From Acidovorax sp. T1 (GTDB taxonomy: Bacteria; Pseudomonadota; Gammaproteobacteria; Burkholderiales; Burkholderiaceae_C), in NCBI RefSeq assembly GCF_002176815.1, contig NZ_CP021648.1:2860001-2924000 (forward strand): a stretch of DNA of 64,000 nt. Reading direction: 5' to 3'. This document shows positions 9,184 to 20,381 of the stretch, in pieces; position 1 is the stretch's first letter; every line of letters begins with the position of its first letter. Position numbers and translations under genes: made by a program. The notes below the pieces were generated by a model that was given only the letters and a program-made list of their open reading frames with translations, was not told the origin of the DNA and did not search any database.

Positions 9184-10071
9184 ATGACTGTTGCCACCAC
9201 CGTTCGCAAAGCCGTATTTCCCGTCGCTGGCCTGGGCACCCGTTTTCTGCCCGCCACCAAGGCGTCTCCGAAGGAAATGCTGCCCGTGGTTGACAAGCCG
9301 CTGATTCAGTACGCTGTGGAAGAGGCTTATGCCGCTGGCATCCGCCACATGATCTTCGTGACCGGCCGCAGCAAGCGCGCCATCGAAGACCATTTCGACA
9401 CGGCGTATGAGCTGGAGGCCGAACTCGAAGCCGCCGGCAAGAAGGAACTGCTGGCGCTGGTGCGCTCCATCCAGCCCGACGACATGGACTGCGCCTTTGT
9501 GCGCCAGCCCCGCTCGCTGGGGCTGGGCCACGCCGTGTTGTGCGCCGAGCCGCTGGTGGGCAAGGAGCCCTTTGCCGTGCTGCTGGCCGACGACCTGATG
9601 GTGGGCCCCCCAGGCGGCCAGCCCGTGCTGGCCCAGATGGCCACCGCCTTCCGCCAGCAAGGCCGCTCGGTCATCGCGGTGCAGGAAGTGCCGGAAGACC
9701 AGGTCCACAAATACGGCATCGTGGCCGGTGAATCCGCTGGCGGCCCGCTGATCCGCATTGAACGCATCGTGGAAAAGCCCAAGGCCGATGTCGCCCCCTC
9801 GCGCATGGGCGTGGCCGGCCGCTACATCCTCACGCCCGGCGTTTTCGACGAGATCCGCAACCAGCCACGCGGCGTGGGCGGCGAGATCCAGCTCACCGAC
9901 GGTATCGCCCGCCTGATGCAGCACGAAGCCGTGTACGCCTTCCAGTACGAAGGCAAGCGCTACGACTGCGGCAGCAAGGAAGGTTTTTTGGAAGCGACGG
10001 TGGAACTGGCTTTGCAGCACCCTCAGGTGGGCAAACACTTCCGTGAATATCTGAAAAAGCTGGCGCTGTAG
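9184..10071 (+). CDS. galU: UTP--glucose-1-phosphate uridylyltransferase
   Basis: 295 residues. Makes UDP-glucose from UTP and glucose 1-phosphate for exopolysaccharide, LPS and sugar-nucleotide routes. Seen: nucleotidyltransferase signature [20 protein letters not shown] (about 11-30), [14 protein letters not shown], the LLADDLM metal-site region and [11 protein letters not shown], length typical of bacterial GalU. Start 9184 follows an AAGGAG ribosome site by 6 bases; the longer frame from 9127 has no such site. It lies 97 bases after valS. Confidence 0.96.
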
Positions 10072-10140
10072 TTCGCCCCGGGCCAGGGCACTGCGTACGA
10101 CACCTGTTGACGCAGCCCTGTGGATACTGATTCTTCTTTA

Positions 10141-10192
10141 TAGCCAAATTGGCCTCTAGCCCTTATCCATCAAGCGCCAGAAGCTATCAAAG
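10141..10192. repeat. AGCGCTT-type intergenic palindrome, copy 2
   Basis: Reads TAGCCAAATTGGCCTCTAGC, CCTTATCCATC, AAGCGCCAGAAGCTATCAA. It ends two bases before the AAGGAG ribosome site of the Sir2 gene, so the repeat forms that gene's leader. Confidence 0.85.
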
Positions 10193-10203
10193 AAGGAGCA
10201 CCC

Positions 10204-11253
10204 ATGCCCAAAACACCCCACGACCCGCTGTACTACCACGCCCGCCGGGCCGTGCTGCACGCCAACGATACCGGCATCTCCCACCTGCAGCGCCGCCTGC
10301 GCATTGGCTACCAGCACGCCATCGACCTGCGCCACGCCCTGCGGGGTGACGTGCTGGAGCACCAGGCTGACACCGACACCTGGCACATCCGCGCTGAGGC
10401 CGACCGGCACACCGACTTCCTGCTCGAAGAAAAACTGGCCCAAGCCGCACGCCTGATCGGCAGCGCCAAGGCCCTGGTCATTGCCGCAGGCGCGGGCATG
10501 GGCATTGACTCGGGCCTGCCGGATTTTCGGGGCGACGAAGGCTTTTTGCGCGCCTACCCCGCGCTGGGTCGGCAAGGGCTCTGCTTTCAAACCATCGCCT
10601 CGCCCCCGGCGTTTGAACAGGTCCCCTTGACCGCTTGGGGCTTCTACGGCCACCGGCTCAATCTGTACCGCGCCACCGCGCCACACGCCGGGTTTGGGGT
10701 GCTCCACGCCTGGGGCCAGCGCATGGCGCAGGGCTGCTTCGTCTTCACCAGCAACGTCGATGGGCACTTTCAAAAAGCGGGTTTTCCCACGGCCCGCGTT
10801 CATGAATGCCACGGCTCCATCCACCGCCTGCAATGCACGGCCCATTGCAGCGGCGAGATCTGGCCCACGGCCCACCTGCACCCGCAGGTGGACGAAGCCG
10901 CTTGCCAGTGGCAGGGCGAACTGCCCCACTGCCCACGCTGCGGCGCGCTGGCGCGGCCCAATGTGCTGATGTTTGACGACCGGCACTGGAACGACACCCG
11001 CAGCCAGCAGCAGCGCATGCTGCTCGACATGTGGCTGGACAGCACCACCGCCCCGCTGGTGATCGAAATCGGCGCTGGCCGCGCCGTGCCCACCGTGCGC
11101 AACTTCACCCGGCGCATGCAGCAGCGCGGCAGCGCGCTGGTGCGCATCAACCTGCGCGAGGCCAGTATTCACAACCCGGATGCGATTGAGATTGCGCTGG
11201 GGGCGCGAGAGGCGCTGGAGCGGATTCAGCAGCACCTTGCGGCTGATATATGA
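10204..11253 (+). CDS. Sir2-family NAD-dependent protein with N-terminal FtsK-gamma-like domain
   Basis: 349 residues. Sir2 proteins hydrolyse NAD, either for protein deacylation or, in several anti-phage systems, to deplete NAD. Residues about 1-60 resemble the FtsK gamma winged helix: DPLYYHARRAVL, then ISHLQRRLRIGYQHA aligns with the ISxVQRxxRIGYNRA core. Residues about 80-345 are Sir2: GAGMGIDSGLPDFRG, TSNVDGHF, ECHGS with the catalytic His, zinc-type cysteines CTAHC and CPRC, and a GAGRAVPTVRNF loop near the C-terminus where GTS is usual. An AAGGAG site precedes ATG 10204. Zinc cysteines and the catalytic His favour a working deacylase; the DNA-binding-type domain is unusual. It lies 168 bases upstream of the AAA+ operon on the same strand and may be a separate unit. 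Confidence 0.85.
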   Translation: MPKTPHDPLYYHARRAVLHANDTGISHLQRRLRIGYQHAIDLRHALRGDVLEHQADTDTWHIRAEADRHTDFLLEEKLAQAARLIGSAKALVIAAGAGMGIDSGLPDFRGDEGFLRAYPALGRQGLCFQTIASPPAFEQVPLTAWGFYGHRLNLYRATAPHAGFGVLHAWGQRMAQGCFVFTSNVDGHFQKAGFPTARVHECHGSIHRLQCTAHCSGEIWPTAHLHPQVDEAACQWQGELPHCPRCGALARPNVLMFDDRHWNDTRSQQQRMLLDMWLDSTTAPLVIEIGAGRAVPTVRNFTRRMQQRGSALVRINLREASIHNPDAIEIALGAREALERIQQHLAADI

Positions 11254-11271
11254 ATCGGTCGCGTCGGCACA

Positions 11272-11322
11272 TCAAAATTGATAGCTGCCAGCGCTTTACA
11301 GCAAAGTGCTGGAGCCTCAAAT
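11272..11322. repeat. AGCGCTT-type intergenic palindrome, copy 3
   Basis: ATCAAAATTGATAGCTGCC, AGCGCTTTACAGCAAAGTGCT and GGAGCCTCAAAT. Lies between the Sir2 gene and the AAA+ operon, starting 19 bases after the Sir2 stop. Confidence 0.8.
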
Positions 11323-11421
11323 CACCTAAAACTCTCGCGCTGCCCGCCACAACACCTGCCAGCGACACAAGTCGTCGCACCCCTGCGGATGATCACTCCT
11401 GTCACCCAAAGGAGCATCTGC

Positions 11422-13497
11422 ATGGCCTACCGTCACCCTCGCCCCCCCACCAAGCAGGCGCCCCACATTGCACTGTGGATGCTGCGCCTGATCACCTCGC
11501 ATGAAGTCCTTCGCCGCTTCGTGTGCAAGGACGACTTTGGCCGCGACGACATCGCCTACGCCCTGGGTCTGGACCACTGGATTGACCCCGAAGACCGCCC
11601 TTTCAACCCCCAGGCGGTGCGCGCCGAGCTGTACCAGCAGCTGAGCAAGGCCCAGCGCGCATGCGCCCAACAGCCCCTGCCCGCCCTGCTGCAGGACAAC
11701 GTGCAGCGGCTGGCCGCGCTGGTGGGGCTGAGCGCGGTGGATGCGCGCATCCTGGCGTTTGCCGTGTGCCTGCACAACGAGCCCATGCTGGACGAAACGG
11801 CCGACATGCTGGAGCAACTCACCACCACCCAGGTCATCAAGACCGTGGCCATGCTGCTGGATCTGCCCGATGCGCAGGTGCGCCAGGCGCTGGGCAGCCA
11901 GGGCCTGCTGGCGCGCTCGGGTCTGGTGGTGGTGGACCGCAGCGGATCAGGGCGCCTCAAGTCCAAGCTGGAGATGCTGTCGCACACCTTCGCCGACCAG
12001 ATGGTGTCCACCGACGCCGACCCCATCCACCTGCTGCGCGGCAAGATCCAGCCCGCCGCGCCGGGGCATCTTGCGCTGACCGACTACGGCCACATAAAGC
12101 CTACGCTGGACATCGTGCGCCCCTGGCTGCACCACGCGCAATGCTCACAGCGGCGCGGGGTCAACCTGTACGTGCACGGCGCGCCCGGCACGGGCAAGAC
12201 CGAGCTCGCGCGCGCCCTGGCGCAAGACCTGGGCTGCGATCTGTTTGAGGTGGCCAGCGAGGACGATGACGGCGACCCGATCAGTCCGGTCAACCGCCTG
12301 CGCGCCTTCCGCGCCGCGCAGAGCTTTCTGGCACAGCGCAAGGCGCTGCTGCTGTTTGACGAGGTGGAAGACGTGTTCCACGACAGCCCGCTGGAGCGCG
12401 GAACTGCCCAGTCGCACAAGGCCTGGCTCAACCGCATGCTAGAGGACAACCCCGTGCCCACGCTGTGGCTGTCCAACACCGTCGCCGGGATGGATGCCGC
12501 CTTCATCCGCCGCTTCGACATGGTGTTCGAGCTGCCCGTGCCGCCGCGCAGCCAGCGCGCGCGCATCGTGCAAGCGCATTGCGGCGACCTGCTGGATGCC
12601 CCGCGCCTGGCCCGCGTGGCCGACGCCGAGCACCTGGCCCCCGCCGTGGTCGCCCGCGCCAGCACCGTAGCCCACGCCATCGAAGCCGAGGTGGGCCGCG
12701 CGGCCAGCGCCAGCGCCTTCGAGCACCTGGTCAGCCACACGCTGCAAGCCCAGGGCCACCGCCCGCTGCCGCGCCATGACGCCAACCGCCTGCCCGAGGT
12801 GTATGACCCCGCCTTTCTGCACGCCGACGCCGACCTGGCCGCGCTGGCACAAGGCATTGCGGCCACGCGCAGCGCCCGCCTGTGCCTGTACGGCCCGCCG
12901 GGCACGGGCAAGACCGCCTTTGGCCGCTGGCTGGCCGAGCAGCTGGACATGCCGCTGCTGGTGCGCCGCGCGTCCGACCTGCTGTCGATGTACGTCGGCG
13001 AGGCCGAGAAGAACATCGCCCGCGCCTTCCGCGAAGCCGAAGACGACGGTGCGCTGCTGCTCATCGACGAGGTGGACAGCTTTCTGCAAGACCGCCGGGG
13101 CGCCCAGCGCAGCTGGGAGGTGACACAGGTGAACGAAATGCTGACGCAGATGGAGAGCTTTGCGGGCGTGTTCATCGCCAGCACCAACCTGATGGACGGG
13201 CTGGACCCCGCCGCGCTGCGCCGCTTTGACCTGAAGGTGAAACTGGACTACCTGCGCGCCCCCCAGGCCTGGGCGCTGCTGCAGCGCCACTGCGTGCAGC
13301 TGGGGCTGGCTGCGCCCAGCGCTGCGCTGCGGACGCGTTTGGACCGCCTGCACCAGCTCACGCCCGGTGACTTTGCCGCAGTGCTGCGCCAGCAGCGGCT
13401 TCGCCCACTGCCCAGCGCCGATGCGCTGGTGGCTGCACTGGAGGCCGAATGCGCGCTGAAGAGCGGCGAGGCGCACCAGCGCATCGGATTCGTCTGA
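11422..13497 (+). CDS. Tandem AAA+ ATPase
   Basis: 691 residues, family not recognised beyond AAA+. An N-terminal helical region (1-235) is followed by two ATPase modules. Module 1: Walker A GAPGTGKTE (about 253), Walker B LLLFDEVED (about 311), sensor-1 Asn in WLSNT, IRRFD arginine (about 364). Module 2: Walker A GPPGTGKTA (about 491), Walker B LLLIDEVDS (about 549), sensor Asn in ASTN, LRRFD (about 601). Both modules look catalytically intact; module 2 resembles the Vps4/proteasome-ATPase class, including the MYVGEAEKNI pore-loop region. Start 11422 has an AAAGGAG site 7 bases upstream; the ATG at 11389 does not. First gene of a five-gene operon; likely a remodelling or unfolding motor, substrate unknown. 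Confidence 0.85.
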   Translation: MAYRHPRPPTKQAPHIALWMLRLITSHEVLRRFVCKDDFGRDDIAYALGLDHWIDPEDRPFNPQAVRAELYQQLSKAQRACAQQPLPALLQDNVQRLAALVGLSAVDARILAFAVCLHNEPMLDETADMLEQLTTTQVIKTVAMLLDLPDAQVRQALGSQGLLARSGLVVVDRSGSGRLKSKLEMLSHTFADQMVSTDADPIHLLRGKIQPAAPGHLALTDYGHIKPTLDIVRPWLHHAQCSQRRGVNLYVHGAPGTGKTELARALAQDLGCDLFEVASEDDDGDPISPVNRLRAFRAAQSFLAQRKALLLFDEVEDVFHDSPLERGTAQSHKAWLNRMLEDNPVPTLWLSNTVAGMDAAFIRRFDMVFELPVPPRSQRARIVQAHCGDLLDAPRLARVADAEHLAPAVVARASTVAHAIEAEVGRAASASAFEHLVSHTLQAQGHRPLPRHDANRLPEVYDPAFLHADADLAALAQGIAATRSARLCLYGPPGTGKTAFGRWLAEQLDMPLLVRRASDLLSMYVGEAEKNIARAFREAEDDGALLLIDEVDSFLQDRRGAQRSWEVTQVNEMLTQMESFAGVFIASTNLMDGLDPAALRRFDLKVKLDYLRAPQAWALLQRHCVQLGLAAPSAALRTRLDRLHQLTPGDFAAVLRQQRLRPLPSADALVAALEAECALKSGEAHQRIGFV

Positions 13498-13524
13498 CAC
13501 AATTTGCAACGAAAGCCCGCCGCT

Positions 13525-15009
13525 ATGCGCACTCTATCCAAATCCAAACTGCTCGCCTTCCGCCAATGCCCCAAGCGCCTGTGGCTCGAAATCCACGCGC
13601 CGCAGCTGCGCGAGGACTCTGGCGCCACGCTGGCCAACTACGCCACGGGGCACCAGGTGGGCGACATTGCGCGGCAAATCTACGACCCGGCGCAGCACGG
13701 CCAGCTGATCGACCCTCAGGTCGAGGGCTTTGACGAGGCCTTTGCGCGCACGCAAACCCTGCTCCGCGCACGCCAGCCCATCTTCGAGGCAGGCTTTCGT
13801 GCCGAAGGCGCGCTGGCCTTTGCCGACGTGCTGCTGCCTGCGGGCAAGCAATGGCGCATGGTGGAGGTCAAGTCCAGCACCAGCGTAAAGGACTACCACC
13901 GCGACGATGTCGCCGTGCAGGCCTTTGTGGCCCGGGCCTGCGGCGTGCCGCTGCGCTCCATCGCGCTGGCGCACGTCGACAACAGCTGGACCTACCCCGG
14001 CGACGGCGACTACCAGGGCCTGCTGGTGGAGGCCGACCTGACCGACGAGGCCTTCGCCCGCACCGGCGAAGTGCGTGGCTGGATTGCCGACGCCCAGGCC
14101 GTGGTGGCGCGCAAGAAGGCGCCTCGCACTGTCACCGGCGCGCAGTGCAGCGAGCCCTACGAATGCGGTTTTCTCGCCCACTGCCAGAGCCAGGAGCCCC
14201 AGGCCGAACACCCCGTACACTGGCTGCCGCGCCGTGGCAACGCGCTCAAGGCTCACATCGAAGAGCACGGAATCAGCGAGCTGCGCGACGTACCTGACAA
14301 TCTGCTCAACCCGATACAGCAACGCGTCAAGGCCGCCACCATGTCGGGCCAGGCCTTCTTCGACCAGCCCGCCACCGCACAGGCCCTGGCCGCGCACAAG
14401 CTGCCGGGCTACTTCATGGACTTTGAAACCATCCAGTTCGGCGTGCCCCTCTGGAAAGGCACACGGCCCTACCAGCAACTTCCCTTCCAGTTCAGCGTGC
14501 ACCGCCTGGGGCGCACGGGGCGGGCCACACACCAGGCCTTCCTCGACCTCTCCGGCGGCAACCCATCGCTGGCTTTTGCCCAGGCCCTTGTTGCAGCCTG
14601 CGGCGAACGCGGCCCGGTGTTTGTCTACAACGCCGCGTTTGAAACCACCCGCATCCGTGAACTCGCTGAACGCCACCCCCGCCTGGCCACCGCGCTGCGG
14701 GCCATCAACGATCGCGTGGTAGACCTGCTGCCCATCGCCCGCCAGCACTACTACCACCCCAGCCAGCAAGGCAGCTGGAGCATCAAGGCCGTGCTGCCCG
14801 CCCTGTGCCCTGAATTGCACTATGACGCTCTCGACGGCGTGCAGGACGGGGGGGCGGCTCAGCAGGCATACCTGGAGGCGATCACACCCGCCACCAGTGC
14901 GCCGCGCAAAGCCGAATTGGAACGTCAACTGCTGGCATACTGCAGCCTGGACACCTGGGCCATGGTACGGCTGTGGAGCGCATTCACCGGCCAGCCCGTT
15001 CGAGACTGA
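13525..15009 (+). CDS. DUF2779 protein: RecB/Cas4-like Fe-S nuclease fused to RNase H-like exonuclease domain
   Basis: 494 residues. N-terminal half: C15 in FRQCPKRLWLE, a PD-(D/E)xK core with FADVLLP (Asp about 99) and MVEVKSS (Glu114, Lys116), then three more cysteines in CSEPYECGFLAHC (about 208, 214, 220). One early Cys plus three late ones is the pattern of Cas4/AddB-type Fe-S nucleases. C-terminal half (DUF2779): YFMDFETIQF (Asp-x-Glu), FVYNAAFETTRI, RVVDLLPI and LAYCSLDTWAMV resemble the acidic motifs of DnaQ/RNase H-fold exonucleases. Inferred role: DNA or RNA degradation. Starts 27 bases after the AAA+ gene and ends 4 bases before the WYL gene. No CRISPR array is nearby, so Cas4 function in adaptation is unlikely. 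Confidence 0.85.
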   Translation: MRTLSKSKLLAFRQCPKRLWLEIHAPQLREDSGATLANYATGHQVGDIARQIYDPAQHGQLIDPQVEGFDEAFARTQTLLRARQPIFEAGFRAEGALAFADVLLPAGKQWRMVEVKSSTSVKDYHRDDVAVQAFVARACGVPLRSIALAHVDNSWTYPGDGDYQGLLVEADLTDEAFARTGEVRGWIADAQAVVARKKAPRTVTGAQCSEPYECGFLAHCQSQEPQAEHPVHWLPRRGNALKAHIEEHGISELRDVPDNLLNPIQQRVKAATMSGQAFFDQPATAQALAAHKLPGYFMDFETIQFGVPLWKGTRPYQQLPFQFSVHRLGRTGRATHQAFLDLSGGNPSLAFAQALVAACGERGPVFVYNAAFETTRIRELAERHPRLATALRAINDRVVDLLPIARQHYYHPSQQGSWSIKAVLPALCPELHYDALDGVQDGGAAQQAYLEAITPATSAPRKAELERQLLAYCSLDTWAMVRLWSAFTGQPVRD

Positions 15010-15013
15010 CTCC

Positions 15014-16006
15014 ATGCCCCAACGCCCCGATACCCTCGAAACCGTCCTGCTCGCCGTGGAACTGCTGCGCCGCATCCCGCGCGGACGCAAGATCACCGCC
15101 AGCGAGCTGCACCGCCAGCTCAAGGACGCCGGCATGGAGCGCAGCGAACGCACCATCCAGCGCCAGCTGGAAATGCTCAGCAGCCACTTCGAAATCGAAC
15201 GTGACGAGCGCAGCAAACCCTACGGCTATCGCTGGTTAGAACGCGCCCAGACCCTGGCCGTGCCACACCTCACGCCCCACGAATCACTACTGCTGCAACT
15301 GGCCGAGGAGCACCTCAAGCACCTGCTGCCCGCACGGCTGATGCAATCCATGGACGGCTTCTTCAGCCAGGCCCGGCGCAACCTGGGCGACGACAGCCAG
15401 GGCCACGGCACCCAGTCCACCCGCCTGGCCCGCGAATGGCCGCGCAAGGTGCGCGTGGTGGCCACCAGCCAGCCACTGCTGCCGCCCGCCATCCCGTCCG
15501 GCGTGCTAGAGGAAGTGAGCGAGGCGCTGTATGCCAACCGCTGGCTGGAGCTGGACTATCAAAATGCCGCAGGCAAACGAAAGTCCATCAAGGTCATGCC
15601 CCTGGGCCTGGCCCAGCAAGGCCCGCGCCTGTACCTGGTGTGCCGGTACGAAGACTTCGACAACGAACGCAGCCTGGCGCTGCACCGTATTCGCAAGGCG
15701 CAGGCATCCACGCTAACGTTCGCGCGCCCGGTGGAATTTGACTTGCAGAAATATGACGACGATGGGCGGTTTGGGTTTGGGGAGGGGCAGCAGGTGCGGC
15801 TGACGTTCTGCATTGAAAACGAGGCAGGCTTTCACCTGCGGGAGACACCCCTATCGAAAGACCAGCACGTGCAGGATCACAACGATGGATGGATGGAAAT
15901 CACTGCCACCGTGGTGGACAGCGCGATGCTGGACTGGTGGTTGCGGGGATTTGGGACCGCGGTCACCGATGTGCGCAAGATGACTTTGAATACCGAGGAA
16001 AAGTAA
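15014..16006 (+). CDS. WYL-domain transcriptional regulator
   Basis: 330 residues. N-terminal winged helix (about 5-75: LETVLLAVELLRRIPRG, then SERTIQRQLEMLSSHFEIER), a middle linker, and a WYL domain (about 170-235) with ANRWLELDYQ, IKVMPLGLAQQGPRLYLVCR and SLALHRIRKA, followed by a C-terminal WCX-like extension ending WWLRGFGTAVTDVRK. WYL proteins bind ligands, probably nucleic acid or nucleotide, and many repress defence operons. Here the gene sits inside the operon, 4 bases after the DUF2779 gene and 4 bases before the DUF262 gene, so it probably senses something and controls its own operon. Start 15014 is supported by the short spacing. Confidence 0.9.
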   Translation: MPQRPDTLETVLLAVELLRRIPRGRKITASELHRQLKDAGMERSERTIQRQLEMLSSHFEIERDERSKPYGYRWLERAQTLAVPHLTPHESLLLQLAEEHLKHLLPARLMQSMDGFFSQARRNLGDDSQGHGTQSTRLAREWPRKVRVVATSQPLLPPAIPSGVLEEVSEALYANRWLELDYQNAAGKRKSIKVMPLGLAQQGPRLYLVCRYEDFDNERSLALHRIRKAQASTLTFARPVEFDLQKYDDDGRFGFGEGQQVRLTFCIENEAGFHLRETPLSKDQHVQDHNDGWMEITATVVDSAMLDWWLRGFGTAVTDVRKMTLNTEEK

Positions 16007-16010
16007 AAAG

Positions 16011-17723
16011 ATGAACTACAAACTGGAATACAAGCCCGTGGGCTTCGGAACGGACCCTGATACCAAGCAGCAAAACCAAGGGCTTACCGGAACATTTTTT
16101 ATACCGGCATACCAGCGCGGTTACCGCTGGACAGAAGATGAAGTCCAAAAGCTGCTGACCGACATCTGGGAAAGCGCCATGAACGAAACCAGGCACTACA
16201 GCTTGCAACCTATCGTGATCAAGAAACGTAGTGACGACAACTGGGAACTGATCGACGGACAGCAACGGCTCACCACGTTGTGGCTGATCTTCAACTACAT
16301 GCATAAAAGCGGCTATCGGCGCTCTGGTGCTGCCTATCACCTGGAATACGAAACGCGCCCAGGCAGCCGCGACTATCTACAAACACTGGATGCACAAAAG
16401 GCTCTGGAAAACATCGACTATTTCCACCTGAGAGGCGCGCATGACGCGATCGAGAAGTGGTTCGACAACAGGGCCAGCACCGACCAAGCCAAAGAGGCAC
16501 TGATCCTTCGAATCTATGGCTATCTCTCTGACTCGGTGCGCGTCATCTGGTACGAAGTGCCAGAAAAAGAGGCGCCCATCCCCCTCTTCACCCGCCTGAA
16601 CCAAGGTCGCATTCCACTGACCGACGCCGAGCTTCTCAAGGCAGTCTTGCTAACACACGTTTCCAAGAACCACAAGGGGCGCGAAAGCGAAATCGCCGCG
16701 CAATGGGACGGCATGGAGCGCGACTTGCAGCGCCCCGAAATCTGGGCCTTCGTCGCAGGCAACGTGCAGAACGGCGCACGTCATGGCACCCGCATCGGCT
16801 TGCTGTTCGACACCCTGGCACAGCCGGAAAGACCCAGCGACAGCAAGCCCCCGCCATACCACACATTCGACACGCTGCGTTCGCAGGCCGAAAGCAGCGG
16901 CCTGAAGTTTTGGGGAAAGGTGGAAAAACTGCACGCCCAGATTCTGGGCTGGTTCGAGGAGCCGCGCTGGTACAACAAGATCGGCTTTTTGGTGGCCTGC
17001 GGAGTATCCATTGGCAAGATCCAAAGGCAAGCCCTCGACAGCAACAAAAATGCTTTTGACGACTGGTTGGACGAGCAGATTAAAGGCACCTTGAAGATCA
17101 ACGCAAGCGCGCTGGACGAGCTGAGCTACGAAAACAACGCCGCAGCCCTTCAGCGCGTGCTGCTGCTGTTCAACGTGCAAATCTGCCGCGAGCGATTTCC
17201 GTTTGAGAAACATGTGGGGCAGGCATGGACACTGGAGCACATCCACGCTCAGAACGCCCAAGACCTGACCCGTGCCGATCAATGGAAATCATGGCTACAG
17301 GAGCATCGCAATGCCCTGGAAGCCATCCAGATTGACCGTGCTGCAATGGCACTGCTCGACGAGATCGACGGCGCCATCCCGGCGGTGGAGGAACGCGGCT
17401 TTGGCGAGCGGTTTCGCGACCTGGCGGGGCGGATACAAAAGGCACTGACCCCTGATGATGAAGGCGCTGACCACACCATCGCCAACCTGGCCCTGCTGTC
17501 CCACAAAGTCAATGCCGAACTGAGCAATGCCGTGTTCGAGGTCAAGCGGCAAAAGGTGGTCGATAGCGACAAGCGCGGGGACTACATCCCGGCGGCCACC
17601 CGCAACGTTTTCCTGAAGTACTACACCCCCGCAGGCAATATGCAACCCCATTTCTGGGGCGCAGCGGACAAGGCTGAGTACCTGCAAGCCATCAAAGACA
17701 AACTGAAACCCTACCTGCCATGA
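16011..17723 (+). CDS. DUF262 protein with C-terminal HNH-like (DUF1524) domain
   Basis: 570 residues. N-terminal DUF262 (ParB/sulfiredoxin-like NTPase) with FFIPAYQRGYRWTEDEV (about 30-46) and the signature ELIDGQQRLTTLWL (about 80-93), and RLNQGRIPLTDAELLKA (about 196-212). The C-terminal part has TLEHIHAQNA (about 407), matching the LEHIxPQ histidine motif of DUF1524 HNH nucleases, although Pro is replaced by Ala. This is the architecture of GmrSD-type modification-dependent endonucleases, SspE and relatives. It may cut modified or phage DNA using NTP. The start is 4 bases after the WYL stop; the stop overlaps the start of the next gene in ATGA. Confidence 0.9.
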   Translation: MNYKLEYKPVGFGTDPDTKQQNQGLTGTFFIPAYQRGYRWTEDEVQKLLTDIWESAMNETRHYSLQPIVIKKRSDDNWELIDGQQRLTTLWLIFNYMHKSGYRRSGAAYHLEYETRPGSRDYLQTLDAQKALENIDYFHLRGAHDAIEKWFDNRASTDQAKEALILRIYGYLSDSVRVIWYEVPEKEAPIPLFTRLNQGRIPLTDAELLKAVLLTHVSKNHKGRESEIAAQWDGMERDLQRPEIWAFVAGNVQNGARHGTRIGLLFDTLAQPERPSDSKPPPYHTFDTLRSQAESSGLKFWGKVEKLHAQILGWFEEPRWYNKIGFLVACGVSIGKIQRQALDSNKNAFDDWLDEQIKGTLKINASALDELSYENNAAALQRVLLLFNVQICRERFPFEKHVGQAWTLEHIHAQNAQDLTRADQWKSWLQEHRNALEAIQIDRAAMALLDEIDGAIPAVEERGFGERFRDLAGRIQKALTPDDEGADHTIANLALLSHKVNAELSNAVFEVKRQKVVDSDKRGDYIPAATRNVFLKYYTPAGNMQPHFWGAADKAEYLQAIKDKLKPYLP

Positions 17724-20068
17724 ACACGCCACACAGCGACAGCACCCACACCAGCCTGGCCCAACTGTTCAGCCAGCCCATCAACGGGTTGCAGGTGCAG
17801 GCCATCGAAATCCCCCTGATCCAGCGCGACTACGCACAAGGCCGCAACAGCCCGCAGGTACAGCAGATTCGCGGACGTTTCATCACCAGCTTGTGCGACG
17901 CTCTAGACAGCCCCGGCGGGATCGACCTGGACTTCGTGTTCGGTGACGTGGTGGTAATAGAGCACGGCACGCAGAAAGTGCCCACGCTGTACCCGCTGGA
18001 CGGCCAGCAGCGCCTGACTACATTATTTTTGCTGCACTGCTATCTGGCCTGGCATACCGGCGAAACCGAAGGGGTTCGTCAGCCTTGGCACGCCTTCAGC
18101 TACGCCACCCGCCCCAGCGCGCGGGCGTTCTGCGAGTTTTTGACTGTATGCCGCCCCAGCATGGCGCAAGGCCCTGTGTCCACATGGCTGAAAGACCAAG
18201 CCAGCTACCTGCCCACCTGGAAGCACGACCCCACCATCCAGGGCATGCTGGTCATGCTGGACGCGTTACATGAGCGGTATTGCCAGGACTCAACGGAAAA
18301 GCTGCGCGCACACTGGCAGCGGCTGACCGACCCGACCCATCCAGCCATCCGCTTTCATCTGCTGCCCATTCAGAGCAAGAGCGAGAACAACACCCTGTAC
18401 GTGAAGATGAACTCACGGGGCAGGCCGTTGACCGATTTCGAGAACTTCAAGGCCGAGCTGGAAGCGCTGATGCGCGACGACCCTGCCATCCCCGCAGAAA
18501 CCAAGCGCACGTTCTCTGACAAGATCGATACGATCTGGGCCGACCTGTTCTGGCACTACCGGGGCGACAACCACCTGATCGACGAAGAGTTCATGCGCTA
18601 CCTGCGTTTTCTGGCCGAAGTGCAGGCTTGGAAGATCGGCAAGAAAGACGTCAATCAGTCCCAAACCGACCGGCAAGCACTGGCCGAGCTGGCCGGATGC
18701 CTGCTAGCCGACATGAACTGGACGGTGCGCGCGCTGGATATCTGGGCCGGTATAGGGCCCGACAGTATCAAACCCTTGTTCGAGCAACTTTTCACCCGCA
18801 CCGAAGGGCCTGCCACGCAGCCTCTGCGCATGTTCAATTTCAGGGATTTCAACGAAAACCGCATCGGCGTGGATCTCTTTCACGCCTGCTGCGAGAGCTA
18901 CGGCAAAAGCCGCCCCTGGAGCTTGCCGCACACCCTGCTGCTCTATGGGGTGCTGCGCGCGCACATGGAATTCGTGCCTTTAGACACCCTGCGCCCGCGC
19001 CTACGCCTGCTGCGCAATCTAATCGAGGCATCGCGTGTTGAGATCCGCACCGACAACATGCCCAGGCTACTGGCCGAGGTGTATGGCATCGTCGTCGGAA
19101 AAACGCTGGCTGAAATCAAAACATTCAACCAAGTACAAGTGCGCAACGAGCAGGACAAGCAAGCCCTCCTAGACATCCATCCCACGTTGCGGGATACCAT
19201 GCACCGGCTGGAAGACCATGTACTGCTGCGTGGCGGATTGACGGCGTTCAACCTTGACCCCGCGCAGAACCCCGCCACCTTTGAAGCCCGCGCCCTGCAG
19301 TTCGCCATCTTGTTTAATCCGCCCCACACGCCTTACAGCTTGGCCAGCGTGGCTCTGCTGGCCAAGCGCAATGATGGCCGGGGCTATATGCGCAGTTCCG
19401 GCCACCGCCTGACCTACCTGGGCGCGCCCAGACAACAGCAAGCAGGGCTATGGGAAGACCACTGGCGCGCTCGGCGCAACGAGCATCCCCACCCCAGTTC
19501 TACCGCGCTATTGGCCCTGCTGGACTGCATGGCGGCAGGGCAGCCGCCGCAATCCGTCGTCGATGCGTTTCTGGACGACCCCCAGACCCCCAAAGACTGG
19601 CGCTACTACCTTGCAAAGTACCCAGCAATGCGCGGCGAACAACTTGAGTTTGCTGGCACCTACGTGGTGTCCCCAGACCCAGGCTATTCCCTGTGCATGC
19701 TCTACACCGACTCTTGCGACAACCGCAGCTACCACCACGACGCCTACCTTCTGGCACTGGCCACGCTCGCGCAAGTAACCCCAGCGAATGACCGTTGGCC
19801 CCGCTCCTTCTACGGCTACGAAGACAAGGCCCGCTACCTGGAGCTACTCGGCAGTCGCATCAAGATACGGTGCGTGGACGCTGGTTGGGAATTCAGCAAC
19901 ATCCCTGAAGACGCCGTGCAGCAGCAGGCGTTCAACGGTGTAGTGCAAAGCCACCCCCGCTATCAAAATCTGCTGTACGCCATACCCCAACACAATGGCA
20001 TCGACACCGAAGACCGGATCGAGCTGGGCGCGCAACTACTGCGGGACCTGATCGCAGTCGGGATGTGA
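17720..20068 (+). CDS. Large DUF262 protein without recognisable HNH domain
   Basis: 782 residues. DUF262 signatures: EIPLIQRDYAQGRN (about 32-45), LYPLDGQQRLTTLFLLH (about 91-107) and VKMNSRGRPLTDFENFKAEL (about 227-246). The remaining 500 residues are not recognised; no His-rich nuclease motif of the HNH kind is seen, though the C-terminus has TYLGAPRQQQ and EYxRRNEHPHPSS-like segments. Overlap of 4 bases with the upstream DUF262 gene implies coupled translation and probably a two-protein complex, with this partner as a sensor or regulatory NTPase. It is the last gene of the operon and is followed by a repeat copy. Confidence 0.88.
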   Translation: MNTPHSDSTHTSLAQLFSQPINGLQVQAIEIPLIQRDYAQGRNSPQVQQIRGRFITSLCDALDSPGGIDLDFVFGDVVVIEHGTQKVPTLYPLDGQQRLTTLFLLHCYLAWHTGETEGVRQPWHAFSYATRPSARAFCEFLTVCRPSMAQGPVSTWLKDQASYLPTWKHDPTIQGMLVMLDALHERYCQDSTEKLRAHWQRLTDPTHPAIRFHLLPIQSKSENNTLYVKMNSRGRPLTDFENFKAELEALMRDDPAIPAETKRTFSDKIDTIWADLFWHYRGDNHLIDEEFMRYLRFLAEVQAWKIGKKDVNQSQTDRQALAELAGCLLADMNWTVRALDIWAGIGPDSIKPLFEQLFTRTEGPATQPLRMFNFRDFNENRIGVDLFHACCESYGKSRPWSLPHTLLLYGVLRAHMEFVPLDTLRPRLRLLRNLIEASRVEIRTDNMPRLLAEVYGIVVGKTLAEIKTFNQVQVRNEQDKQALLDIHPTLRDTMHRLEDHVLLRGGLTAFNLDPAQNPATFEARALQFAILFNPPHTPYSLASVALLAKRNDGRGYMRSSGHRLTYLGAPRQQQAGLWEDHWRARRNEHPHPSSTALLALLDCMAAGQPPQSVVDAFLDDPQTPKDWRYYLAKYPAMRGEQLEFAGTYVVSPDPGYSLCMLYTDSCDNRSYHHDAYLLALATLAQVTPANDRWPRSFYGYEDKARYLELLGSRIKIRCVDAGWEFSNIPEDAVQQQAFNGVVQSHPRYQNLLYAIPQHNGIDTEDRIELGAQLLRDLIAVGM

Positions 20069-20086
20069 ATCTGAGCACATAGTTAC

Positions 20087-20130
20087 CAAAATAATAGCTA
20101 TCAGCGCTCGCCCATCATGGGCTAGCAACC
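20087..20130. repeat. AGCGCTT-type intergenic palindrome, copy 4 (diverged)
   Basis: AAAATAATAGCTATCAGCGC, TCGCCCATCATGG, GCTAGCAACC. Lies between the convergent DUF262 gene and tusA-like gene. Confidence 0.65.
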
Positions 20131-20147
20131 GGTTTAGCTTGCAACGC

Positions 20148-20381
20148 TTAGCGCCGCCGCAGAATGTGGATGTATTCCTCGCCCACCGTCTGCTGCTCCA
20201 CCAGCTCATTGCCCGTCTGCTTGGCAAACGCCTGAAAGTCCCGCAGAGACCCGCCATCGGTGGCCACCACCTTCAGCAACTGGCCGCTGGCCATGTCTGA
20301 CAGCGCCTTCTTGGCCTTGAGGATGGGCAGGGGGCAGTTAAGGCCCCGGGTGTCGATTTCTTTGTGAACGTCCATGGTCAT
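20148..20381 (-). CDS. TusA/SirA-family sulfur carrier protein
   Basis: 77 residues. TusA-like proteins carry persulfide sulfur on a conserved Cys for tRNA thiolation, molybdenum cofactor or other sulfur transfers. Seen: DTRGLNCPLPILKAKKAL with the catalytic Cys in the CPLP motif, followed by LKVVATDGGSLRDFQAFAKQTG and a C-terminal beta strand, matching family length. The ATG at 20381 overlaps the NUDIX stop in TGATG; an ATG six bases further in is an alternative. The overlap suggests translational coupling to the NUDIX gene. Which sulfur pathway it serves cannot be told; cysM lies further upstream on the same strand. Confidence 0.92.
   Translation of the reverse strand: MTMDVHKEIDTRGLNCPLPILKAKKALSDMASGQLLKVVATDGGSLRDFQAFAKQTGNELVEQQTVGEEYIHILRRR

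Follow-up and report, generated by a model that had tools for sequence, protein, structure and literature searches.

A recurrent AAA+ ATPase, DUF2779 nuclease and WYL regulator core followed by a GrwAB-like DUF262 pair in a candidate anti-phage operon of Acidovorax sp. T1

A 64,000-nucleotide stretch of the Acidovorax sp. T1 genome (contig NZ_CP021648.1, positions 2,860,001 to 2,924,000; hereafter the window, whose numbering is used throughout) carries a tight row of five genes, here called A to E, which a first-pass annotation had put forward as an undescribed defence operon. The coordinates and open reading frames (ORFs) agree with the layout it described: all five genes lie on the plus strand between 11422 and 20068, have no internal stops and are separated by gaps of 27, 4, 4 and -4 bases. 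Gene A (11422..13497, 691 amino acids, aa) has an ATG start codon with GGAG upstream and encodes an all-helical N-terminal part followed by two p97/Cdc48-like AAA+ modules (PF00004, two stretches, e-value = 1.7e-41). Gene B (13525..15009, 494 aa) encodes a Cas4-like PD-(D/E)XK domain, predicted to carry an iron-sulfur (Fe-S) cluster, joined to a DUF2779 exonuclease domain of the DEDD type (PF11074, e-value = 1.4e-40). Gene C (15014..16006, 330 aa) encodes a winged-helix regulator with the WYL domain expected of it (PF13280, e-value = 2.2e-11) and a WCX domain (PF25583, e-value = 6.3e-7). Genes D (16011..17723, 570 aa) and E (17720..20068, 782 aa) both begin with a DUF262 domain (PF03235, e-value = 7.4e-32 and 2.9e-19, respectively), followed in the GrwA-like D by DUF1524 (PF07510, e-value = 1.4e-6) and in the GrwB-like E by a long unassigned C-terminal part. 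A promoter scan found 0 sites against 1.4 expected; the gene caller used here was a simple one, so unlabelled ORFs and start positions are rough. Our comparison with other genomes shows that A-B-C is a recurrent three-gene core and that D-E is a separable pair.

Both AAA+ modules of A are intact, as had been claimed: the Walker A lysine, Walker B Asp-Glu, sensor Asn and Arg pair are invariant in 19 of 19 alignment rows. What did not hold as well was the description of this protein as a "motor". An aromatic pore loop is the usual mark of a peptide-translocating ring, and one is present in the second module (Y524-V525-G526; 12991..12999, plus strand), with Y/W/F, V/I/L and G at these positions in all 19 rows; in the same alignment no aromatic pore loop was found at the stretch 278-282 of the first module. 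The structure model of A (mean predicted local distance difference test score, pLDDT, of 85.4) has Rix7, Cdc48 and p97 as its nearest folds in Foldseek, and the closest PDB sequences are a VCP-like ATPase and Cdc48. Because of the pore loop and these best folds, A is better read as a predicted protein unfoldase than as a helicase. On the first P-loop, RNA_helicase and Viral_helicase1 are among the many P-loop families of Pfam that score above their cut-offs, and we set the helicase assignment aside in favor of the pore loop and the fold search. The protein has the p97/Cdc48 architecture, with two intact AAA+ modules and the aromatic loop in the second, while its score against the CDC48 family model (TIGR01243) is 80.1 bits, below the cut-off of 802.65. 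Domain, sequence and fold searches assigned no relative to its N-terminal part. Thirteen stand-alone paralogues of A (763-906 aa; L183-L193, L195 and L196) form one group in a tree made by a quick method, in which several deep forks are weak. These paralogues, from other genomes of the family and order, have none of the profiled partners nearby.

Gene B contains a PD-(D/E)XK site with four cysteines and a DEDD site, in line with the PD-(D/E)XK and RNase H-like domains proposed for it. In an alignment of 49 rows (48 of 63 B loci plus the window), C15, C208, C214, C220, D101, K116, D299, E301, E373, Y472 and D476 are invariant, E114 is kept in 47 rows and N369 in 45. Membership in DUF2779 is clear from the PF11074 score (138.9 bits against a cut-off of 23.3), the DEDD residues and the N-terminal PD-(D/E)XK domain. 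The AlphaFold model (mean pLDDT 95.2) had Cas4 as its best Foldseek match (8d3l, e-value = 1.9e-5), with RecE and MGME1 next and weaker matches to RNase T and ExoI; in a sequence-profile search of the PDB, Cas4 did not reach significance (e-value = 0.63). The fold together with the four conserved cysteines is what characterizes Cas4, and the cysteines of B probably bind an Fe-S cluster. As for a role as a CRISPR Cas4, the fold fits and no cas gene was found among the ten flanking proteins scanned (CRISPR arrays were not searched for), and we did not retain this assignment. In the available part of a survey of RNase H-like proteins, DUF2779 (family F.17) is counted among the presumed 3'-5' exonucleases, with DUF83, a PD-(D/E)XK-like domain, attached (PMC3985635).

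The product of gene C is 58-77% identical to 11 relatives in an alignment of 12, and a single-sequence search of the PDB gave no WYL match. The WYL protein BrxR is a repressor, 48% of whose homologues lie beside defence systems according to the part of the BrxR paper available (PMC9122601).

Genes D and E can be compared with the recently described GrwAB pair. The accessible portion of that description gives GrwA as a DUF262 protein with QR, DGQQR and FxxxN motifs followed by a DUF1524 domain with H431, N521 and N530, and GrwB as the product of a second gene with DUF262 and then unknown domains; variants of either protein abolish protection (PMC12137116). A second report, likewise available in part, has the pair protecting against phages with modified cytosine or 7-deazaguanine (PMC12409362). 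In the window we find two neighboring genes with a 4-base overlap, each with an N-terminal DUF262 domain and the second GrwB-like, and the first has a DUF1524 domain (GmrSD_C, e-value = 1.4e-6) with a histidine and two asparagines. The DUF262 pair with one HNH-like motif that had been noted is therefore present, as GmrSD_N in both proteins and GmrSD_C in D. QR, DGQQR, FxxxN, H410, N492 and N501 of D are invariant in 13 of 13 rows, and QR, DGQQR and YxxxN of E in 14 of 14, these sets having been picked from GrwAB-like pairs, with L216-L221 and other DUF262 families left out. By architecture and motifs set against the published description, D-E fits a GrwAB-like type IV modification-dependent restriction system. 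This half of the operon is not new, the type having been published in 2025.

To ask how far the five genes travel together, we collected B loci: a scan for B gave 63, and other genome regions and annotated plasmids raised the number to 111, of which 105 are distinct. Of the 50 loci counted as close (a profile score of 640 or higher), 24 have A no farther than 6 kb from B and 35 have C no farther than 4 kb, with both present in 20 and at least one in 39; for the 29 of these with at least 3.5 kb on both sides, the numbers are 15, 21, 13 and 23. The counts for C come from a sequence profile that may also catch other WYL proteins. The core is seen in proteobacteria in several gene orders, the same-strand order A-B-C in 7 of the 29 and, in others, A following B-C, A-C-B, or A on the opposite strand. 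A search of 399 genomes of the order detected B in 47 (e-value of 0.001 or below); from these, the 38 stronger places, in 36 genomes, were kept. A strong A (at least 450 bits) occurs in 13 of the 399 genomes, 12 of which also have B, and 11 of 15 strong A places are within 12 kb of B as against 3 of 24 weaker ones. Some loci lack a part. A locus on a Pantoea plasmid (L152) has A, a WYL gene, two hypothetical genes and an SNF2 gene without B; in L198, which also lacks B, A is read in two frames and a DUF262 gene follows; in L035, C is missing and A and B are accompanied by a different DUF262 pair; and L037 has a split B followed by C, D and E, with no A seen in 10 kb upstream.

Of the 105 distinct B loci, the window and L010 alone have all five families in the window's order, and we therefore rejected the five-gene set as a conserved unit. 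The expectation of a conserved co-occurrence is thus borne out for A, B and C and not for the five in order. The first-pass annotation had made its novelty claim depend on the genes not being found mostly apart; D-E is indeed mostly found apart from A-B-C, whereas in the close clade A, B and C are in most cases kept together. D-E relatives without A-B-C appear in the displayed plasmid stretches of Rhodococcus, Paraburkholderia (with the first gene annotated in two pieces) and Peptoclostridium. A core standing free of any cassette might have been read from L003, but we did not use it as proof: its match to the window breaks off 43 bases short of the stop of C, and the contig runs on for about 2.1 kb beyond C.

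The position 3' of the core acts as a slot for exchangeable cassettes; those seen in it are DUF262 pairs, single GmrSD-like proteins and PLD/helicase cassettes. Of the 50 close B loci, 9 have a DUF262 gene no more than 5 kb away (the window, L010, L018, L019, L022, L030, L035, L042 and L107), always 3' and on the strand of B, and L037, with its split and lower-scoring B, is a tenth case. The DUF262 assignment is confirmed by Pfam or PF03235 in the window, L018, L019, L035, L107 and the genome of L022, and is made by similarity in L010, L030, L037 and L042. A PLD and a helicase gene lie within 9 kb on the 3' side in 4 of the 50 (L007, L020, L024 and L097); the DUF262, PLD and helicase profiles behind these counts were built partly from loci later counted. 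Of the 38 B places kept from the order, 4 are within 15 kb of a DUF262 place, the window included, against 0.12 expected by Poisson (3 of 37 without the window), where the expectation takes at least about 155 DUF262 places and a genome size assumed to average 3.6 Mb. Distant B lineages show the pairing again: in L204/L209, B is followed by U450, PLD and helicase genes, and in L208/L213 (IMGVR_UViG_3300024272_003801, from IMG/VR, whose contigs count as viral by that collection's own call) B (DUF2779) comes last on one strand, after a DUF262 pair and a Y-family DNA polymerase gene. Another gene pair (about 333-344 and 147-165 aa) stands behind C at L008:4640-6189 and L052:12524-14005; the first gene of L008 and the second of L052 have no Pfam match.

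The two halves of the operon differ in composition and in kinship. The guanine-plus-cytosine content is 0.696, 0.669 and 0.632 for A, B and C versus 0.569 and 0.605 for D and E. For B, the window and L037 are closer (81% identity) than L010 and L037 (73%, over a 284-residue piece), whereas for D and E the nearer pair is L010 and L037 (69 and 64%, versus 60 and 60%). This disagreement on nearest relatives, seen in three sequences only, would fit a cassette exchange.

The operon was horizontally acquired by insertion between galU and tusA. The insert, of about 10.08 kb (10071..20148), is lacking in 14 of 16 same-genus junctions, the comparison covering 16 of 23 same-genus relatives: in these 14, homology to the window ends at 10031-10074 and restarts at 20148-20193 on the tusA side, with 80-337 bases between. 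In the window, galU and the PALP (cysM-like) gene are about 11.0 kb apart, versus about 1.0-1.3 kb in most same-genus genomes with both genes on one contig. In G002 this distance is about 6.6 kb, and its junction (L176, G002:C2:1140000-1147300) holds a different stretch of about 5.7 kb with LysR, sulfatase, TctC, TetR and MFS genes, so that galU-tusA may be a general insertion spot; the contig of G010 stops short of tusA. Of 60 relatives, gene E matches in 2: the genome of the window itself and G023, where the match covers a 56-residue piece.

The flanking genes galU, tusA and cysM had been listed, but a gene between galU and A was missing from that list. It encodes a 349-aa SIR2-domain protein with an FtsK_gamma-like N-terminus (10204..11253, plus strand; PF02146, e-value = 4.2e-17; PF09397, e-value = 8.8e-8), shares its strand with A and comes first in the insert, which otherwise holds A to E. 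In L004 a relative of this SIR2 gene immediately precedes B, and in L154, on a plasmid stretch with BREX-2 genes as well, one immediately follows A; the membership of the window's SIR2 gene in the function of the operon is uncertain. The short interspersed repeat ATAGCTNNNAGCGCTT (at most one mismatch) occurs 230 times forward and 216 times in reverse in the T1 genome, against 0 and 1 for a reversed-pattern control; in the window it is found at 10188 (minus strand), at 11279, 20092 and 20978 (plus strand) and elsewhere, that is, in the gap before A and near both insert edges. At L003:7605-7791, a tusA-like segment lies between galU and A, placing A-B-C on the opposite side of tusA from that in the window.

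On balance we lean toward reading this locus as an acquired anti-phage operon in which the core A-B-C, perhaps with the SIR2 gene, has been joined to a GrwAB-like cassette D-E. We hypothesize that the DUF262 domains of D and E would sense modified DNA and hydrolyze nucleoside triphosphates while the His-Me (DUF1524) domain of D cuts, so that D-E would make the initial cuts in modified phage DNA. A, as a p97-like ring ATPase threading proteins through its pore, may then strip or remodel proteins on phage DNA or in an effector complex, B could degrade the phage DNA from its ends with its Cas4-like Fe-S PD-(D/E)XK and DEDD 3'-5' exonuclease sites, and C might couple expression to nucleic-acid products. 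The anti-phage activity, the order of these steps and any joint action of core and cassette beyond a common transcript are what we infer from the genes and their neighbors. The earlier proposal of one defence operon therefore stands insofar as the genes are co-directional, acquired and of defence type, and falls insofar as the five are not a conserved set.

A number of observations weigh against such a joint system. Six of the 29 well-flanked close B loci have neither A nor C, and in the two more distant B groups A is near in 3 of 36 and 3 of 19, and C in 17 of 36 and 2 of 19. The A genes paired with B are not one clade (11 label changes in the quick tree). In a Diaphorobacter locus (L096), A-B-C is followed by genes on the opposite strand, and helicase or PLD matches also fall outside the slot, 5' of B in L006 and on the other strand in L021 and L017. 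E has YxxxN in all 14 rows where FxxxN is described, and D-E was set beside GrwAB through published architecture and motifs rather than through the GrwA and GrwB sequences. A DUF2779 gene appears in the available part of a Mycoplasma bovis transposon table, and the family is therefore not confined to defence islands. Finally, A-B-C is so far without known activity, and defence islands can yield common transcripts without a common mechanism.

An alternative is that two independent defence systems share one transcript without a joint mechanism, A-B-C being complete by itself as a nuclease aided by the unfoldase and controlled by the WYL protein, and the GrwAB-like D-E having landed behind it and borrowed its promoter. 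We consider this somewhat unlikely. D-E relatives do stand alone on plasmids, L096 carries A-B-C without a same-strand follower, and the halves differ in composition and kinship; against this, the slot is 3' and on the same strand in 9 of 9 DUF262 and 4 of 4 PLD-helicase close cases, the genes of the window, L010 and L037 alike are a few bases apart, and the pairing is found again in distant B lineages. Less probable still is that A, with C, is a safety or expression device, in which A would disassemble D-E or B complexes against self-damage and the WYL protein would repress the operon until infection, as the repressor BrxR does in BREX. The pore loop of A points to a protein substrate, A and a WYL gene accompany other defence cassettes without B in L152 and L154, and BrxR homologues so often lie beside defence systems; yet B stays with DUF262 cassettes without A in L018, L019, L022, L030 and L042, and a search for operator-like inverted repeats ahead of A gave none in the window, L005 or L006 (L010 has three pairs there).

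It is also conceivable, at a low probability, that A-B-C serves DNA repair or housekeeping nucleic-acid turnover with D-E as a passenger. DUF2779 is a presumed 3'-5' exonuclease family (PMC3985635, in the part available), many distant B genes have no defence partner detectable by the profiles used, and stand-alone A paralogues exist. The strain-specific insertion at galU-tusA, the presence on 30 plasmid records and the repeated union with restriction-type cassettes all speak against a housekeeping role.

A-B-C could be a general immunity chassis in which a p97-like unfoldase, a nuclease with two sites and a WYL sensor lend protein clearing and DNA degradation to exchangeable DNA-attacking cassettes, an extension that we offer only tentatively. 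With the same reserve, we suggest that one common core might upgrade several unrelated effectors, namely the GrwAB-like pair, a single GmrSD and a PDC-M27-like PLD/helicase cassette. The present analysis attaches a named mechanism, GrwAB-like type IV restriction, to one half of a so far anonymous operon and sets apart the other half, which is uncatalogued. Were it true that the trio aids cassettes, the extra genes beside certain type IV and PLD/helicase systems would be explained, and a p97-like protein unfoldase would be tied to phage DNA destruction. Loci in which one part is missing (A in L004, B in L152 and L198, C in L035) offer a natural test of which parts are needed.

The novelty claimed for the operon accordingly survives in part. 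The five-gene operon is not new as a whole because D-E fits the published GrwAB architecture and motifs; what is left is the A-B-C core and its modular use. As far as our searches show, the core with its cassette slot remains undescribed: no description of the trio was recognized in literature searched by title and the start of the abstract, without preprints and most subscription papers, the same literature held no mention of PDC-M27, and DUF2779 was not found in the available parts of a BREX survey and the BrxR paper (PMC9122601). PADLOC 2.0 likewise has no model for B beyond a weak match to Cas4 alone (about 1e-3), and its best match for A is IetA.

Among known systems, B resembles Cas4 in its predicted Fe-S PD-(D/E)XK fold and family F.17 in its presumed 3'-5' exonuclease domain, and differs from both in joining the two domains in one chain. 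A has its best PADLOC and NCBIfam matches in IetAS (IetA, e-value = 8.3e-37, and IteA, e-value = 1.4e-33, respectively), but we rejected this system, since A scores 116.6 bits against an IetA equivalog cut-off of 510 and no IetS-type subtilase domain was found in B-E or the ten scanned flanking proteins. The PADLOC candidate PDC-M27 and the Zac system resemble the three-gene cassette that fills the slot behind A-B-C or B in other loci. The L024 helicase matches PDC-M27C (e-value = 3.1e-42); in L204, U450 corresponds to PDC-M27A (e-value = 2.5e-18), the helicase to PDC-M27C (e-value = 6.8e-78) and the PLD gene to ZacB (e-value = 3.3e-14, the best match) and PDC-M27B (e-value = 1.7e-9); in L007, the PLD gene matches ZacB (e-value = 4.8e-16) and the first gene matched nothing. 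The window itself differs, with no PLD or SNF2 domain found in B-E or the SIR2 gene and with B matching no PADLOC model except Cas4.

TgvAB also consists of two DUF262 proteins, one with DUF1524 (PMC12409362, available in part), and GrwB and TgvA are described as distinct in the accessible text of PMC12137116. The settings of TgvAB and of RloF-type DUF262 proteins (PMC4619093, again in part) resemble those of D-E relatives in or beside type I restriction-modification (R-M) genes, while the insert in the window has no R-M gene. In L156, the row A - HsdM - HsdS - YhcG - DUF262 - DUF262 - HsdR places a distant DUF262 pair inside type I R-M genes, and in L157 a distant pair lies behind HsdS...HsdR. 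At L156:2074-16607, the tandem AAA+ gene heads a type I R-M row with a YhcG-type nuclease and the DUF262 pair. As for GrwAB, QR and DGQQR stand in both proteins of D-E, the two asparagines of D are nine residues apart, as in GrwA, and E has a long unassigned C-terminal part, the difference being that D-E follows A-B-C in one operon.

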